From: Pseudomonadota bacterium
GTDB taxonomy: Bacteria > Pseudomonadota > Gammaproteobacteria > Steroidobacterales > Steroidobacteraceae
Length of the DNA: 5,218 bases
NCBI GenBank assembly: GCA_021850555.1
Contig: JAJZLX010000071.1
Coordinates: 399 to 5,616, forward strand
Direction: 5' to 3'
In this document: piece after piece, positions 2,296 to 5,218 of the stretch
Position numbering within the stretch: position 1 is the stretch's first letter
How the letters are laid out: every line of letters begins with the position of its first letter
Program-made: the position numbers and the translations under genes
The notes under the pieces: model-generated
Database searches by the model: none
Told to the model about the DNA's origin: nothing
What the model saw: only the letters and a program-made list of their open reading frames with translations

Positions 2296-2649
2296 ATGCA
2301 AGGTGCGTTCTTGAGGTTCTACGTCCGCGAGGATCATCGTCATCACGGCCAACTCGCGTGGGAGTGGCTGCTCGAGCACGGCAGCAGTCTCGGTCTGCAA
2401 GGCGGTTGCGCGGTCAAATCAATGGCCGGCTTTGGTCACCGTCATGTGTTTCATGATGCCGGCTTTTCCGAACTCACCGGCACACGTATAATCGAAGTGC
2501 AATTCGTGACGGCGCAGGCGGGTGCCCGGAAATTGCTCGATCTGCTGCACCGCGAGAAGCTACGGCTGTTCTATGCCTATATCCCGGCGTCCTTCGGCGT
2601 CGTCAACCCCGATGACGCCGATCCGCCTGCGGCCGCTGATGGGTCCTGA
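2296..2649 (+). CDS. DUF190 (UPF0166) protein, PII-like fold
   Basis: The product is 117 aa, the usual size for DUF190 proteins, which are small and resemble the PII signalling fold. Seen: an N-terminal strand AFLRFYVREDHRHHGQLAWEWLLEHG (from residue 4), then GLQGGCAVKSMAGFGHRHVFH (about residues 34-54), matching the family's 'Ga.v..g..GfG....' core, then a strand RIIEVQFVT and a C-terminal helix followed by RLFYAYIPASFGV. The molecular role of the family is not settled. It is known to lie often beside, or fused to, the fluoride channel gene crcB, which fits the two fluoride riboswitches about 0.8 kb downstream. The Pro/Ala-rich tail after about residue 105 is poorly conserved and overlaps the convergent ATPase gene. 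Upstream is a non-coding gap; I see no clear sigma70 promoter. Confidence 0.85.
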   Translation: MQGAFLRFYVREDHRHHGQLAWEWLLEHGSSLGLQGGCAVKSMAGFGHRHVFHDAGFSELTGTRIIEVQFVTAQAGARKLLDLLHREKLRLFYAYIPASFGVVNPDDADPPAAADGS

Positions 2650-3389
2650 GCGGTCATCTGCCCCGCCGAGCGCACCGACAATTCCGCTCGTACCATCGCG
2701 AGCGCGTGGTAGCGTACGGCCGCCTCGGTGTCGACACACAAGACCGTGATCAAAGGACCACAGGTGCACCAGTAGCGCTGCTCGCGGGCAAGTTGAGTGC
2801 ATTTCGCGATCCATCCGGGCCGACCGCGCGATGCTTCGACGAACGCCTCACGCGCGTCCGCGGCGAGTGCCGGCAATCGTGAAGCGCTCCAACGATCATC
2901 GAGAAGGCGGCGCAGTTGGCGGTCCGTGGCCGCCGGCATGCGTACCGACAGCGCCCCGTAGCGCCAGGGCCGCATGCGCGCACGCTCGACAACAGTGTCG
3001 ACGTCGACCACGGTCAGAACACCGGCGATCTTGCCGTGCAAGCGTCTCAGGAACGACACCATCGCGGTACCGTTGCAGCGGAAATGGTCGAGCAGCAGGA
3101 CCCCCGCCCGCCGGTCCGCCGCGTGCCACAGCCGGCCACGAGCCGTGCGCCGCCCGACCGTGCACGTATCTATGCCGGGATATGCACGCTCCAGAACTCG
3201 CGTGATGTCATCGAGGCAGCTGGTCGACGCAGAGTAGGCGCACGGGACTGCACTCAGTTGGAGTCGAGCCAGCAACTGCGTGAGGACAGACGACTTGCCG
3301 CTGCCACGTGGGCCGTAGAGTGTCATATGCTCGCCGCGCAACAACCGTCGTTCCAGTTGCCCGATGAACTCAGCCACCCGTGACTGCAT
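2577..3389 (-). CDS. P-loop (AAA-type) ATPase under a fluoride riboswitch, function unknown
   Basis: This 270-aa protein has an N-terminal helix (MQSRVAEFIGQLERRLLRG), then LYGPRGSGKSS (Walker A, 24-34, with K32), a Walker B-like VLLLDHF (97-103, D101), an arginine-rich middle section, and GRPGWI (189-194), resembling the sensor-2/lid turn of small AAA-type ATPases. There are no membrane segments. The residue after the Walker B aspartate is His, not the usual Glu, so hydrolysis chemistry may differ. The last ~28 residues are Ser/Ala/Gly-rich and lie where the gene overlaps the convergent DUF190 gene by 73 bp. The ATG at 3389 is chosen because it starts the family-like helix and no other start lies between it and the in-frame stop at 3434-3432. 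Its leader carries a fluoride aptamer (3477-3425), so expression is probably fluoride-induced. The partner and substrate are unknown. Confidence 0.8.
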   Translation of the reverse strand: MQSRVAEFIGQLERRLLRGEHMTLYGPRGSGKSSVLTQLLARLQLSAVPCAYSASTSCLDDITRVLERAYPGIDTCTVGRRTARGRLWHAADRRAGVLLLDHFRCNGTAMVSFLRRLHGKIAGVLTVVDVDTVVERARMRPWRYGALSVRMPAATDRQLRRLLDDRWSASRLPALAADAREAFVEASRGRPGWIAKCTQLAREQRYWCTCGPLITVLCVDTEAAVRYHALAMVRAELSVRSAGQMTAQDPSAAAGGSASSGLTTPKDAGI

Positions 3390-3398
3390 GGGTCTATC

Positions 3399-3431
3399 TG
3401 CCTGCCATCCGCACGACTCTCGACGCAGGCA
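3399..3431 (-). promoter_or_regulatory. Alternative hairpin (expression platform) before the ATPase gene
   Basis: On the minus strand TGCCTGC (3431-3425) pairs perfectly over 7 bp with GCAGGCA (3405-3399), with a 19-nt loop. The 5' arm takes up most of the P1 3' strand of the fluoride aptamer. The 3' arm covers the SD-like GGCAGG (3406-3401) about 11 nt before the ATPase ATG. The two folds therefore exclude each other. Inference: without fluoride this hairpin hides the ribosome site, and with fluoride the aptamer forms and frees it. No U-tract follows, which argues for translational rather than termination control. Confidence 0.6.
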
Positions 3432-3477
3432 TCATCAACCGCGGAACGCGGCACTTCGGGGACGGATGCCATCTCCC
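3425..3477 (-). promoter_or_regulatory. Fluoride riboswitch (crcB motif) controlling the ATPase gene
   Basis: Read on the minus strand from 3477 downward: GGGAGATGGCAT (3477-3466), a TCCC block (3462-3459), GAAGTGCC leading into a CCGCG-TTC-CGCGG hairpin (3451-3439), then TTGATGATGCC (3438-3428). Pairings seen: GGGA 3477-3474 with TCCC 3462-3459; GGCAT 3470-3466 with ATGCC 3432-3428 (P1); CCGCG with CGCGG. Order, spacing and the conserved GATGGCAT and TGATGATGCC blocks match the crcB-motif fluoride aptamer as I remember it from Pseudomonas syringae. The usual CCTAC 3' end reads CCTGC here. It lies 36 nt upstream of the ATPase start. Fluoride riboswitches are normally ON-switches. This assignment rests on reading motifs and helices, not on a covariance search. 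Confidence 0.85.
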
Positions 3478-3488
3478 TTCGGTCTTAC

Positions 3489-3518
3489 AGTTTAGGATGC
3501 TGCGACCTGCGATCGCAA
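3489..3518 (-). promoter_or_regulatory. Probable sigma70 promoter for the ATPase riboswitch transcript
   Basis: Minus-strand TTGCGA (3518-3513) as -35, an 18-nt spacer, and TAAACT (3494-3489) as -10. The predicted start near 3482 falls about 5 nt before the aptamer. Each hexamer matches consensus at four of six positions. The placement, rather than the hexamers alone, supports the call. Confidence 0.4.
3508..3517. repeat. 10-bp palindrome between the divergent promoters
   Basis: TGCGATCGCA is a perfect palindrome that overlaps the -35 element of the minus-strand promoter and lies about 26 nt upstream of the plus-strand -35. It could be an operator for a protein regulator acting on both promoters, or chance in GC-rich DNA. 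Confidence 0.25.
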
Positions 3519-3543
3519 GTCTTCGCGACCGCGGCCACGGCGC

Positions 3544-3572
3544 TTGCTGGCCATCCGACGCATGTGTATATT
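3544..3572 (+). promoter_or_regulatory. Probable sigma70 promoter of the hyf-like operon
   Basis: TTGCTG (3544-3549) as -35, a 17-nt spacer, and TATATT (3567-3572) as -10. This is the most AT-rich spot in the divergent region. The predicted start near 3579 is exactly where the fluoride aptamer begins (3580), as is common for leader riboswitches. Confidence 0.5.
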
Positions 3573-3579
3573 GGCCCGC

Positions 3580-3638
3580 GGGGAGATGGCATTCCTCCCG
3601 CAACCAAGAACCGCCGCATCCGGCTAATGATGCCTACC
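3580..3638 (+). promoter_or_regulatory. Fluoride riboswitch (crcB motif) controlling the hyf-like operon
   Basis: GGGGAGATGGCATTCCTCCC (3580-3599) is followed by AAGAACC (3606-3612), a GCCG-CATC-CGGC hairpin (3613-3624) and TAATGATGCCTACC (3625-3638). Pairings seen: GGGAG 3581-3585 with CTCCC 3595-3599; GGCAT 3588-3592 with ATGCC 3630-3634 (P1); GCCG with CGGC. The sequence follows the Pseudomonas syringae fluoride aptamer, as I remember it, almost block for block (GGAGATGGCATTCCTCC, AACCGC, then TGATGATGCCTAC). One deviation: the usual TGATGA reads TAATGA. The family senses fluoride and usually turns on fluoride-resistance genes such as crcB; to my recollection formate hydrogenlyase-type genes were also among the genes first linked to the motif. 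Here it precedes a 43-codon ORF and hyfC/hyfE-like genes. Confidence 0.92.
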
Positions 3639-3673
3639 CATTCCGTCATTGCGACGGAGGAGTGGTAGCGCAT
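3630..3673 (+). promoter_or_regulatory. SD- and start-codon-sequestering hairpin (expression platform)
   Basis: An imperfect long hairpin can form around the loop ATTGC (3648-3652): TTCCGTC 3641-3647 with GACGGAG 3653-3659 (one G-U), A3640 with T3663, CTACC 3634-3638 with GGTAG 3664-3668, and ATGC 3630-3633 with GCAT 3670-3673. Bulges are GAG 3660-3662, C3639 and C3669. It buries the SD GGAGGAG (3656-3662) and the first two bases of the ATG at 3672, and it uses the P1 3' strand of the aptamer. The two folds are mutually exclusive, as expected for a translational ON-switch. The pairing is seen directly; the switching direction is inferred. Confidence 0.65.
3656..3662 (+). promoter_or_regulatory. 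Riboswitch-controlled Shine-Dalgarno
   Basis: GGAGGAG lies 9 nt before the ATG at 3672. It is the only strong ribosome site between the aptamer and the hyfC-like gene's own weaker site, and it is half buried in the alternative hairpin. This makes the ATG at 3672 the first start of the operon. Confidence 0.65.
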
Positions 3674-3803
3674 GAGACCCGAGTTCATCCCGAGTCCCGT
3701 CGGCAGGCTGTACCCGCGACCGAGGTCGCGCGTTCCCCCTGGTGATCCAAGACCATGGTGTCGGGTTCCGCCTGAAACAGCGCCGAGTCACGCCAGGAGC
3801 TGA
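3672..3803 (+). CDS. Small 43-aa ORF between fluoride riboswitch and hyfC-like gene
   Basis: The ORF starts with ATG at 3672 behind the SD GGAGGAG and stops with TGA at 3801-3803, 3 nt before the GTG of the hyfC-like gene. The predicted peptide (MRPEFIPSPVGRLYPRP..., ending HARS) is rich in Pro and Arg, has one Cys and no membrane helix; I recognise no family. The evidence for translation is the riboswitch platform, which hides exactly this SD and start codon. It is in the same frame as hyfC, so only the TGA separates the two. Likely roles: a leader ORF whose translation is coupled to hyfC, passing the riboswitch signal to it; a small subunit of its own; or the degenerated start of a lost gene such as hyfB. 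Codon use and composition look non-protein-like, so leader is my preferred reading. Confidence 0.45.
   Translation: MRPEFIPSPVGRLYPRPRSRVPPGDPRPWCRVPPETAPSHARS
3794..3799 (+). promoter_or_regulatory. Shine-Dalgarno deciding the GTG start of the hyfC-like gene
   Basis: CAGGAG at 3794-3799 is 7 nt before the GTG at 3807. It lies inside the last codons of the small ORF, an arrangement typical of translational coupling. Confidence 0.6.
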
Positions 3804-3806
3804 CGC

Positions 3807-4751
3807 GTGGCGCGGGCCGTGCTGCTGCAGATCGCCCAGGTCCTGACCGTCGTCATGCTCGCGCCGCTGCTGCAGGGGATCATCCTGCAGTGGGAGGAAC
3901 GGGTTCAACGCGCGCGTGGACCCGGAATCTTCCAGCCCTACCGCGATCTGCGGAAGTTGTTTCACAAGCAGCTCGTGATCCCGGAGACCGCGAGCTTCAT
4001 CTACTGGGCCGCGCCCGTTATCGCCTTCACCTGCATGCTTACGGTGCCGATTCTGATCCCGGTGCTGACGAACTTTCCGCTGCCCCTCTCCGACATGGGC
4101 GACATCCTCGGCGGCGGGCTCATTCTGACCCTGGGCTCATTCTTCATCACCCTGGCGGGTCTCGACTCCGGCAGCGCCTATGGCGGCATTGGCTCATCGC
4201 GGGCAGTGATGCTCGGGATTCTTGCCGAACCCACCCTCATTCTGGTCTTCGTCGGCATCACGCTGCTCGCGAAATCAATGCTGCCGTTCGCGGTCAACCA
4301 TGTGCTCGTCGGCCAACCGGCCGTGTACTGGGGCCCCGCGCACCTGTTTTTGGTCGCCGCATTCTTCATCCTCTTGCTCGCCGAAACCGACCGGCTGCCT
4401 TTTCACTCCAGCACCCACATCGAGGTATACATGATCGAGGAGGCCCGCATCCTCGAGTATTCCGGCCCGTTATTGGCGTTGCTGCGCTGGGCCTCGGCGA
4501 TGAAGCAATTCATCCTCTACATCATCTTCTGCAACGTACTGCTGCTACCCTGGGGGCTGTCGATTCAGGGTACGGCCCTGGGCGCTCTCGGCGCCGCCGG
4601 CGGACTGCTCGTGAAATTCGCGGCCGTCGGAGCGGTGGTGGTCCTCGTCGAGACCATGCAGGCGCGCCTGCGCTACTACCGCTATCAGGAACCGCTCGCA
4701 GCCTCCTTCCTGCTCGCGATTCTCGCGATCGTCGCCAACCAGGTGAGGTAA
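3807..4751 (+). CDS. hyfC: HyfC-like membrane subunit (hydrogenase-4 / NuoH family)
   Basis: This 314-aa integral membrane protein (about eight hydrophobic helices) belongs to the NuoH/HyfC/HycD family, which joins the membrane arm to the electron-transfer arm in complex I-related enzymes. Motifs: RARGPGIFQPYRDLRKLF (35-52), the conserved first cytoplasmic loop; GLDSGSAYGGIGSSRAVMLG (118-137); and AETDRLPFHSSTHIEVYMIEEARILEYSG (192-220), the acidic loop near the quinone/proton path. This loop matches the HyfC branch ('THLE..MI.EA.ILEYSG') better than NuoH; the usual PFD or PVD reads PFH here. The GTG start at 3807 is backed by an SD and by where family members begin. The stop is 2 nt before hyfE. 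No hyfB precedes it, as it would in the Escherichia coli hyf operon. Fluoride control is inferred from the leader. Confidence 0.9.
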   Translation: MARAVLLQIAQVLTVVMLAPLLQGIILQWEERVQRARGPGIFQPYRDLRKLFHKQLVIPETASFIYWAAPVIAFTCMLTVPILIPVLTNFPLPLSDMGDILGGGLILTLGSFFITLAGLDSGSAYGGIGSSRAVMLGILAEPTLILVFVGITLLAKSMLPFAVNHVLVGQPAVYWGPAHLFLVAAFFILLLAETDRLPFHSSTHIEVYMIEEARILEYSGPLLALLRWASAMKQFILYIIFCNVLLLPWGLSIQGTALGALGAAGGLLVKFAAVGAVVVLVETMQARLRYYRYQEPLAASFLLAILAIVANQVR

Positions 4752-4753
4752 CG

Positions 4754-5218
4754 ATGTTCGCCGCCCATATTCCACCGCTCGCCGGATCGCTGTTCAGCCT
4801 GCTCGCCATCGTCAGCCTGTTGCTGGCATTCGTCATGCTCGGCTCACGCTGGCTCAACGCCTACCTCGGCGCGTTCGCCCTGCAATCGTGGTTGATTGCC
4901 GTGCTCTCAGCGGCTGTCGCCTATTACGGAGGGTATCCCGAGCTGTACGGTATCGCGGCACTCACCGCGTTGTTTCGCGGTCTGGTGCTGCCGTACCTGC
5001 TGTTGCGCATTACGCGACGCCTGAACGTCGACCGCGAATTGCACGAGCGGCTCTCGCCGAGTGCCAGCCTCGTGGTAGGCGCCCTGCTGGTCGTGTTCGC
5101 CTTCGTGGTCGCAAATCACCTGAGCACGGTCCTTGGACTCGGCGGCACGGTCGCGGTGCTGGCCCTGACCGCCATGCTGTCCATGAAGCTCATCGGCTTT
5201 CTGATGCTCGTGGTGCGC
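4754..5218 (+). CDS. hyfE: HyfE-like membrane subunit, cut by the window end
   Basis: The first 155 codons are visible; full-length HyfE proteins are about 215 aa, so about a quarter is missing. Hydrophobic helices fall at about 12-30, 36-58, 67-86, 105-122 and 126-155, with a charged stretch RITRRLNVDRELHERLSP (85-102) between the third and fourth. The MSMKLIGFLMLVVR at the visible end corresponds to the HyfE segment before its conserved 'GfL.lENGifl' motif. The small membrane subunit HyfE resembles NuoK at its C-terminal half and sits beside the proton-pumping subunits in group 4 hydrogenase-like complexes. The ATG at 4754 has AGGTGAGGT (4741-4749) upstream and starts 2 nt after the hyfC stop, so the genes form one operon. 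HyfF and the hydrogenase-like subunits would be expected next. Confidence 0.85.
   Translation, partial: MFAAHIPPLAGSLFSLLAIVSLLLAFVMLGSRWLNAYLGAFALQSWLIAVLSAAVAYYGGYPELYGIAALTALFRGLVLPYLLLRITRRLNVDRELHERLSPSASLVVGALLVVFAFVVANHLSTVLGLGGTVAVLALTAMLSMKLIGFLMLVVR

Follow-up and report, generated by a model that had tools for sequence, protein, structure and literature searches.

A back-to-back pair of predicted fluoride riboswitches between an ATPase gene and an Ehr-like operon of a Steroidobacteraceae bacterium

Can a single ion be sensed twice, by two separate RNAs, within one control region? This question is raised by a stretch of 5,218 nucleotides (termed here the window) in which an initial reading of the letters alone (the sequence-only reading) had noticed two crcB-motif aptamers on opposite strands, one in front of an ATPase gene and the other in front of a Hyf-like operon. 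The features that frame the question are as follows (coordinates are those of the window):

2577..3389, - strand: AAA ATPase gene, 270 aa (AAA_22/AAA_16 at E 3e-5, under the Pfam cut-offs)
3419..3485, - strand: fluoride-riboswitch-like aptamer of the AAA ATPase gene (27.8 bits, below cut-off; P1 with a G.G mismatch; alignment with related leaders extends across the entire aptamer)
3573..3643, + strand: fluoride riboswitch aptamer (RF01734) in the leader of the Ehr-like/hyf operon (46.9 bits against 34; pairs counted on 12 leaders)
3582-3585/3595-3598, 3613-3616/3621-3624 and 3588-3592/3630-3634, + strand: P1, P3 and pseudoknot, respectively, of that aptamer
3807..4751, + strand: hyfC/nuoH-like gene (NADHdh; Pfam PF00146, E 6e-36), first of the Ehr-like operon
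4754..5218, + strand: hyfE-like gene, cut by the window end (NCBIfam NF008556, E 3e-5, 23.8 bits where the cut-off is 136; without a Pfam family)

The + strand match, found by cmscan over the whole window at 3573-3643, passes the Rfam gathering cut-off of 34 bits with a score of 46.9 (E 5.9e-11). Its 5' block, GGGAGATGGCAT, occupies 3581-3592 and has its exact complement at 3466-3477, which is where the sequence-only reading had located the two blocks; downstream of each 12-base block, on the strand of that block, come a G+C hairpin and then ATGATGCC, and the two 5' cores face each other across a spacer of about 100 bp (3478-3580). The + aptamer lies upstream of the leader open reading frame (ORF) of hyfC, and the - element upstream of the ATPase gene, in both cases on the same strand as the gene. 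One label has to be changed: GGCAT/ATGCC, which had been read as P1, is the pseudoknot helix, and P1 is GGAG/CUCC, judging from the Rfam structure line (which marks no pseudoknot) and from the known anatomy of the aptamer. Covariation within the aptamer itself is absent across the hyf set because the aptamer hardly varies there. The window differs from the species genome at five single bases (41, 62, 1987, 3620 and 3652), one of which falls within the P3 loop of the + aptamer.

On the - strand, positions 3485-3419 match the model at 27.8 bits (E 6.3e-6, for a searched stretch of 321 nt), which is under the cut-off; P3 and the pseudoknot can pair, and P1 has, besides its G.G mismatch, a competing hairpin. 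The sequence-only reading had itself named a passing score on only one strand as an outcome that would count against the pair, and within the window this is literally what is found; yet 10 of the 13 ATPase-side elements of the genus (window counted) do pass, the core is kept across 12 leaders, and the ATPase gene itself has a dN/dS of 0.15-0.28 against three relatives and its own paralogue (a rough estimate, as dS exceeds 1 in three of the four comparisons). The passing scores, for elements whose neighboring ATPase genes were located by tblastn, are 38.7 (the paralogue on contig C18 of genome G000), 36.7 (G006), 36.7 (G298), 50.0 (G036), 46.0 (G008), 35.2 (G013), 42.9 (G147), 43.0 (G194), 35.6 (G206) and 36.0 (G275), where G006 and G298 are not independent, having an identical hyf-side leader and an identical ATPase-side core; the scores below the cut-off are 27.8 (the window and G000), 25.7 (G007) and 25.1 (G003). 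Alignment of 12 ATPase leaders shows hardly any change in the 5' block or in the block UGAUGAUGCCUGC, and the loops and the spacer are variable.

A further peculiarity of the - element is shared by the window, G206 and G007: a predicted hairpin, GGG.GAUGG:CCGUC-CCC, in the 5' part of the element buries GAUGG with a gain of 4.9-6.6 kcal/mol (depending on folded length), which, under an energy model that leaves out the pseudoknot, is the largest among 134 elements. A gain of at least 2 kcal/mol is seen in 46 of the 134, the next largest being 4.2. Hence, predicted misfolding may weaken or blunt the ATPase-side switch in the clade to which the window belongs. To judge from its dN/dS, purifying selection apparently acts on the ATPase gene; it has 260 homologues at E ≤ 0.001, and Steroidobacteraceae are named for two among the 120 listed. 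A DUF190 gene (window 2296-2649) runs toward the ATPase gene and has no riboswitch before it in the window; DUF190 genes are found near the ATPase in several related loci as well. Elsewhere on the window's contig, a weak fluoride riboswitch match (25.1 bits; L009, 4236-4297) lies 44 nt ahead of an enolase gene.

What, then, is the operon on the other side? Its products are NuoH/HyfC, a HyfE-like protein, two Mrp-like subunits, a NuoB-ferredoxin protein and a 49-kDa-type large subunit. Within the large subunit (L009, 9265-10767) RVSGIGSVAH is aligned with RVCGICGFAH of 7z0s_E, a formate hydrogenlyase subunit of known structure; the nickel-binding motifs of a [NiFe] hydrogenase large subunit are, as given in the text of PMC4378227, RxCGxCxxxH and DPCxxCxxH/R. 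The L1-column cysteines are absent in all 13 large-subunit homologues from the loci, and no DPCxxC occurs where their C-termini align (three being truncated); in two homologues a single CxxC does occur, at another place in the sequence. Because the large subunit lacks the nickel-binding cysteines, the operon is not that of a [NiFe] hydrogenase: the two nickel-binding motifs by which group 4 enzymes and formate hydrogenlyases are recognized are both missing, and what the operon encodes--a hydrogenase-like large subunit without nickel ligands, together with Mrp-like membrane subunits--is the combination by which Ehr complexes are recognized. From its sequence, therefore, the operon fits an Ehr-like complex rather than a hydrogenase. 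The flanks proposed at the outset, an ATPase gene and a Hyf-like operon, stand. As for fluoride exporters, the host genome has a single CrcB gene (C27) and four CLC genes (C22, C48, C60, C61), all on contigs without riboswitches, its nine riboswitches being on C18 and C39; CrcB genes do occur near riboswitches in other members of the genus (G006, G017, G194 and G298).

How each aptamer might control its gene is suggested by predicted folds of the two leaders, which involve the following segments:

3630..3638, + strand: pseudoknot 3' strand and tail, AUGCCUACC, predicted partner of 3664-3673 when the aptamer is unformed (folds, pair counts)
3664..3673, + strand: GGUAGCGCAU, predicted sequestering partner reaching into the leader ORF start codon (folds, pair counts)
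3672..3803, + strand: 43-codon leader ORF with its stop 3 nt ahead of the hyfC start (comparable ORF in 15 of 15 hyf leaders)
3425..3431, - strand: UGCCUGC, pseudoknot 3' strand and tail of the ATPase leader (folds)
3399..3405, - strand: GCAGGCA ahead of the ATPase start codon, predicted partner of 3425-3431 (folds, alignment)

In the predicted fold of the + leader AUGCCUACC lies against GGUAGCGCAU, covering the start of the short ORF. More generally, when the leaders are folded to minimum energy, the 3' strand of the pseudoknot with its tail finds a downstream partner (at least 5 of 9 bases paired) in all 15 distinct hyf leaders and, by the same rule, in 11 of 12 ATPase leaders (none in G275), both counts being made without a shuffled control; the partner is mostly 20-40 nt past the aptamer core. 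At another fold length, as judged by eye, pairing with the ribosome-binding site (RBS) is missing from the minimum-energy folds of the C18 paralogue of G000 (both sides) and of the ATPase sides of G007 and G013. Within an alignment of 12 hyf leaders (which omits L022 and L138, being of another type, and the species copy L003), 90.6% of the cells of the platform are paired and four inner pairs are changed on both sides; four such pairs are reached by 5 of 500 shuffles and slid versions of the helix give 0-3, while its covariation score of 0.139 is reached by none of 500 shuffles, and slid controls attain at most 0.098. As the rows are related, this covariation supports the platform but does not prove it. 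In the folds of the L022 and L138 leaders it is ACUCCUCCU that pairs with the RBS segment. Ungapped complementarity of the tail is of little use as a general test, since p ≤ 0.05 is obtained for only 34% of the 134 elements; for the window's + leader p is 0.20. A transcription-terminator platform was also considered and set aside, as the folds favored pairing around start codons.

All 15 distinct hyf leaders (the window and its species copy being taken as two, and the frameshifted paralogue being one of the 15) have a leader ORF of 23-53 codons that begins 31-44 nt past the aptamer core, with stops that fall from 9 nt before to 4 nt into the hyfC start, including nine with an NTGA overlap. (The filter admitted stops within 40 nt of the hyfC start; L021 has another candidate, 31 nt short.) This geometry suggests translational coupling to hyfC, and both leaders are predicted, from their folds, to be translational ON switches.

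Each leader also has a candidate promoter of its own, and the two promoter-like sites are placed back to back within the spacer:

3544..3572, + strand: predicted sigma70-like promoter, TTGCTG-17-TATATT (sequence; promoter statistics over 64 sides)
3489..3518, - strand: predicted sigma70-like promoter, TTGCGA-18-TAAACT (sequence; promoter statistics over 64 sides)

Across 32 distinct divergent pairs (64 sides, many of them related, with the window's pair represented by its species copy), the -10 element of the best -35/-10 match, scored with matrices drawn from general knowledge, begins 10-22 nt 5' of the aptamer on 56 of the 64 sides, versus 29.5% in shuffles; the mean promoter score is 9.1 versus 3.0 in shuffles.

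Is the arrangement peculiar to this locus? The host genome has nine RF01734 matches, and three divergent pairs account for six of them: ATPase/hyfC (the window), a paralogous ATPase/hyfC pair on C18, and HEAT-repeat/dynamin, also on C18. In the second ATPase/hyfC pair (L010, 1689-3044) hyfC is frameshifted and a MutS-like gene, not hyfE, comes next; further along (L010, 3059-16370) is a fluoride-switched island that comprises, besides a second hyf-type operon, genes for a HEAT-repeat protein, a histidine phosphatase, two MutS-like proteins and two dynamin-like GTPases. The genus as a whole has 13 divergent pairs in 10 genomes, found without recourse to a DNA pattern and separated by 77-132 nt between model ends (77-90 in 11 of the 13); their annotated partners are ATPase/hyfC, HEAT/dynamin and dynamin/second-type hyfC. 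In G003, for which reference proteins only were used, the riboswitch opposite the ATPase points at the 3' end of an enolase gene, and another gene may be present there. Among 60 relatives and 296 genomes of the order (overlapping sets), divergent pairs are confined to this genus. An assembly artefact is ruled out as their source: the window and the species genome differ at 5 of 5218 bases, and the pairs occur in other genomes with different partners.

Across the phylum the divergent arrangement is rare, since among the matches listed from 398 genomes (67 of them with an RF01734 match; inspected by eye, under stricter filters) no divergent pair was found outside the host genome. It is nevertheless not restricted to the genus. 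A DNA pattern for the divergent pair, in which core-to-core distance was restricted to 88-118 nt (so that the pattern partly sets the spacing), matched at least 118 stretches; under a rule combining sequence and pairing, complete pairs are present in 30 of the 118 loci listed, bins of the genus included. A chance pair is unlikely because this rule finds 105 elements in 866,765 bases of pattern-selected loci, versus none in one mononucleotide shuffle per locus. Whole-genome Rfam searches were then applied to 31 genomes chosen for pairs, elements or both-strand matches (hence the counts are not frequencies), all 31 of which have matches over the cut-off. Among 150 matches listed, those within 700 bp of each other make up 27 divergent pairs, from 17 of the 31 genomes, together with two tandem neighbors and no convergent ones; 21 of the 27 listed pairs have 35-97 nt between model ends, six of them exactly 83, and two are from Pollutimonas contigs with identical coordinates, which are likely copies. 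The 17 genomes include Rhodanobacter, Achromobacter, Variovorax, Pandoraea, Pollutimonas, Bradyrhizobium, Paenibacillus doosanensis, an Acidobacteria bin and two bins of the archaeal genus Methanothrix (L080 and L109), whose pairs have 97 nt between model ends and score over the cut-off on both sides. Paraburkholderia sp. DHOC27 (L108) has 34 fluoride riboswitch matches, those listed all being on one contig.

Outside the annotated bins of the genus, 20 loci provide 21 pairs and thus 42 sides, on 39 of which an ORF was called mechanically; Pfam was run on 30 of these (near-duplicates and short or cut ones being omitted), and 7 of the 30 have no Pfam family. The remaining families include Voltage_CLC, CrcB, enolase, MutS_V, NADHdh (HyfC), dynamin, HEAT, histidine phosphatase, DUF190, a CMAS-type methyltransferase and a CBS protein, and the pairs for which both sides could be named are CLC/MutS-like (Achromobacter), enolase/HyfC (L098), CrcB/enolase (Pandoraea), MutS-like/enolase (L147) and HEAT/CBS (L177). 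According to the texts of PMC2864571 and PMC5533749, fluoride riboswitches are known to accompany genes for CrcB, enolase, chloride transport and formate hydrogen lyase as well as mutS.

Taken together, these observations bear out the divergent pair itself, and its most probable interpretation is that a strong aptamer in the Ehr-like leader and a weaker one in the ATPase leader are two separate translational fluoride ON switches, each with its own predicted promoter. On the + side, AUGCCUACC would pair with GGUAGCGCAU when fluoride is absent, hiding the start codon of the leader ORF; when fluoride is bound, the pseudoknot would form and free that start, and hyfC would be translated by reinitiation of ribosomes that finish at the leader ORF stop. 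In the ATPase leader, on the - strand, UGCCUGC would pair with GCAGGCA upstream of the ATPase start, likewise hiding it in the absence of fluoride. Because the two predicted RNAs do not overlap, one diffusible signal, fluoride, could open both gene sets together.

Three other explanations have to be weighed against two working switches. The first is that only the + element works in this species and that the ATPase-side aptamer is decaying or locked off, the pair being the relic of a double switch. The subthreshold score of the - element, its P1 G.G mismatch and a GAUGG-burying hairpin that is the strongest of the 134 and common to G206 and G007 all point this way, as do the elements of G003 and G007, which are under the cut-off too; but G206 has the same hairpin and still passes, the hairpin energy omits the pseudoknot, the blocks of the pseudoknot and UGAUGA have been conserved, predicted pairing of the tail close to the start of the ATPase gene persists, and that gene has a dN/dS of 0.15-0.28. 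Loss of the second switch is accordingly regarded as unlikely, though a serious candidate.

Unlikely, too, is the idea that the riboswitches are real and that their head-to-head order is a by-product of packing fluoride-switched genes into islands, with no regulatory meaning of its own. Genomes that bear pairs are indeed often rich in riboswitches, as the host and Paraburkholderia sp. DHOC27 illustrate; packing alone, however, accounts poorly for close neighbors that are nearly all divergent among the matches listed (from genomes chosen for pairs or elements), for a close spacing that recurs in unrelated lineages (where the pattern partly sets it), or for the narrow spacing of 11 of the 13 genus pairs, which were found without the pattern. 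Finally, the 12-base inverted repeat, being exact, might be an operator for a DNA-binding regulator, with the RNA match incidental. This is very improbable indeed: the covariance-model match covers the full length, conserved 3' blocks and RBS-pairing segments follow downstream, and other pairs have arms that are not complementary to each other (e.g., GGCGATGGAGT with GGAGATGGCAT in L076), so that the whole-aptamer match and the recurrence with different arm sequences were taken to rule the operator out.

If two separate ON switches are indeed present, then one ion is sensed twice at one control region, and opposite gene sets open together without a protein regulator. Two back-to-back aptamers about 100 bp apart would also constitute a searchable signature leading to fluoride-defence islands, and the locus points to a testable role for a fluoride-switched Ehr-like complex and to riboswitch control exerted through a coupled leader ORF. 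A bolder proposal, offered tentatively and with the balance of likelihood against it, is that divergent pairs are a recurrent module of fluoride-defence islands in bacteria and archaea, and that the operon of the 'formate hydrogen lyase' kind found here encodes a nickel-free, complex-I-like ion pump acting against hydrogen fluoride, its expression being gated through a leader ORF that the riboswitch controls and that is coupled to hyfC. The notion of a pump against hydrogen fluoride is an idea of the present analysis.

The RNA class is known, and the divergent arrangement appears to be undescribed: in agreement with the sequence-only reading, which knew of no such case, a search of open-licence full texts found no described divergent fluoride-riboswitch pair. 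Ehr complexes (PMC6349859, PMC4378227) likewise combine a large subunit without nickel-binding motifs with Mrp-like or complex-I-like membrane subunits; here, however, a fluoride riboswitch leads the operon, and the main text of the Sulfobacillus paper (PMC4378227) mentions neither fluoride nor a riboswitch. The fluoride-resistance operon on island GI3 of Enterobacter cloacae FRM (PMC5533749) is also a riboswitch-run set that includes enolase, CrcB and others, but it has a single riboswitch and a single six-gene operon, and the words divergent, hydrogenase and mutS do not appear in the main text. Contiguous (tandem) riboswitches (PMC12452182) resemble the present pair in having two closely placed aptamers but are described as lying ahead of a single regulated gene; that main text does not contain the words opposite, strand, divergent or orientation. 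There is, lastly, the fluoride riboswitch, or crcB motif (RF01734), itself, with which the elements described here share aptamer fold, leader position and kinds of downstream gene--mutS, K+/Cl- transport and formate hydrogen lyase genes being already listed in the text of Weinberg et al. 2010 (PMC2864571), the main text of which uses neither 'divergent' nor 'opposite strand'--and from which they differ in that two aptamers, on opposite strands, share one spacer.
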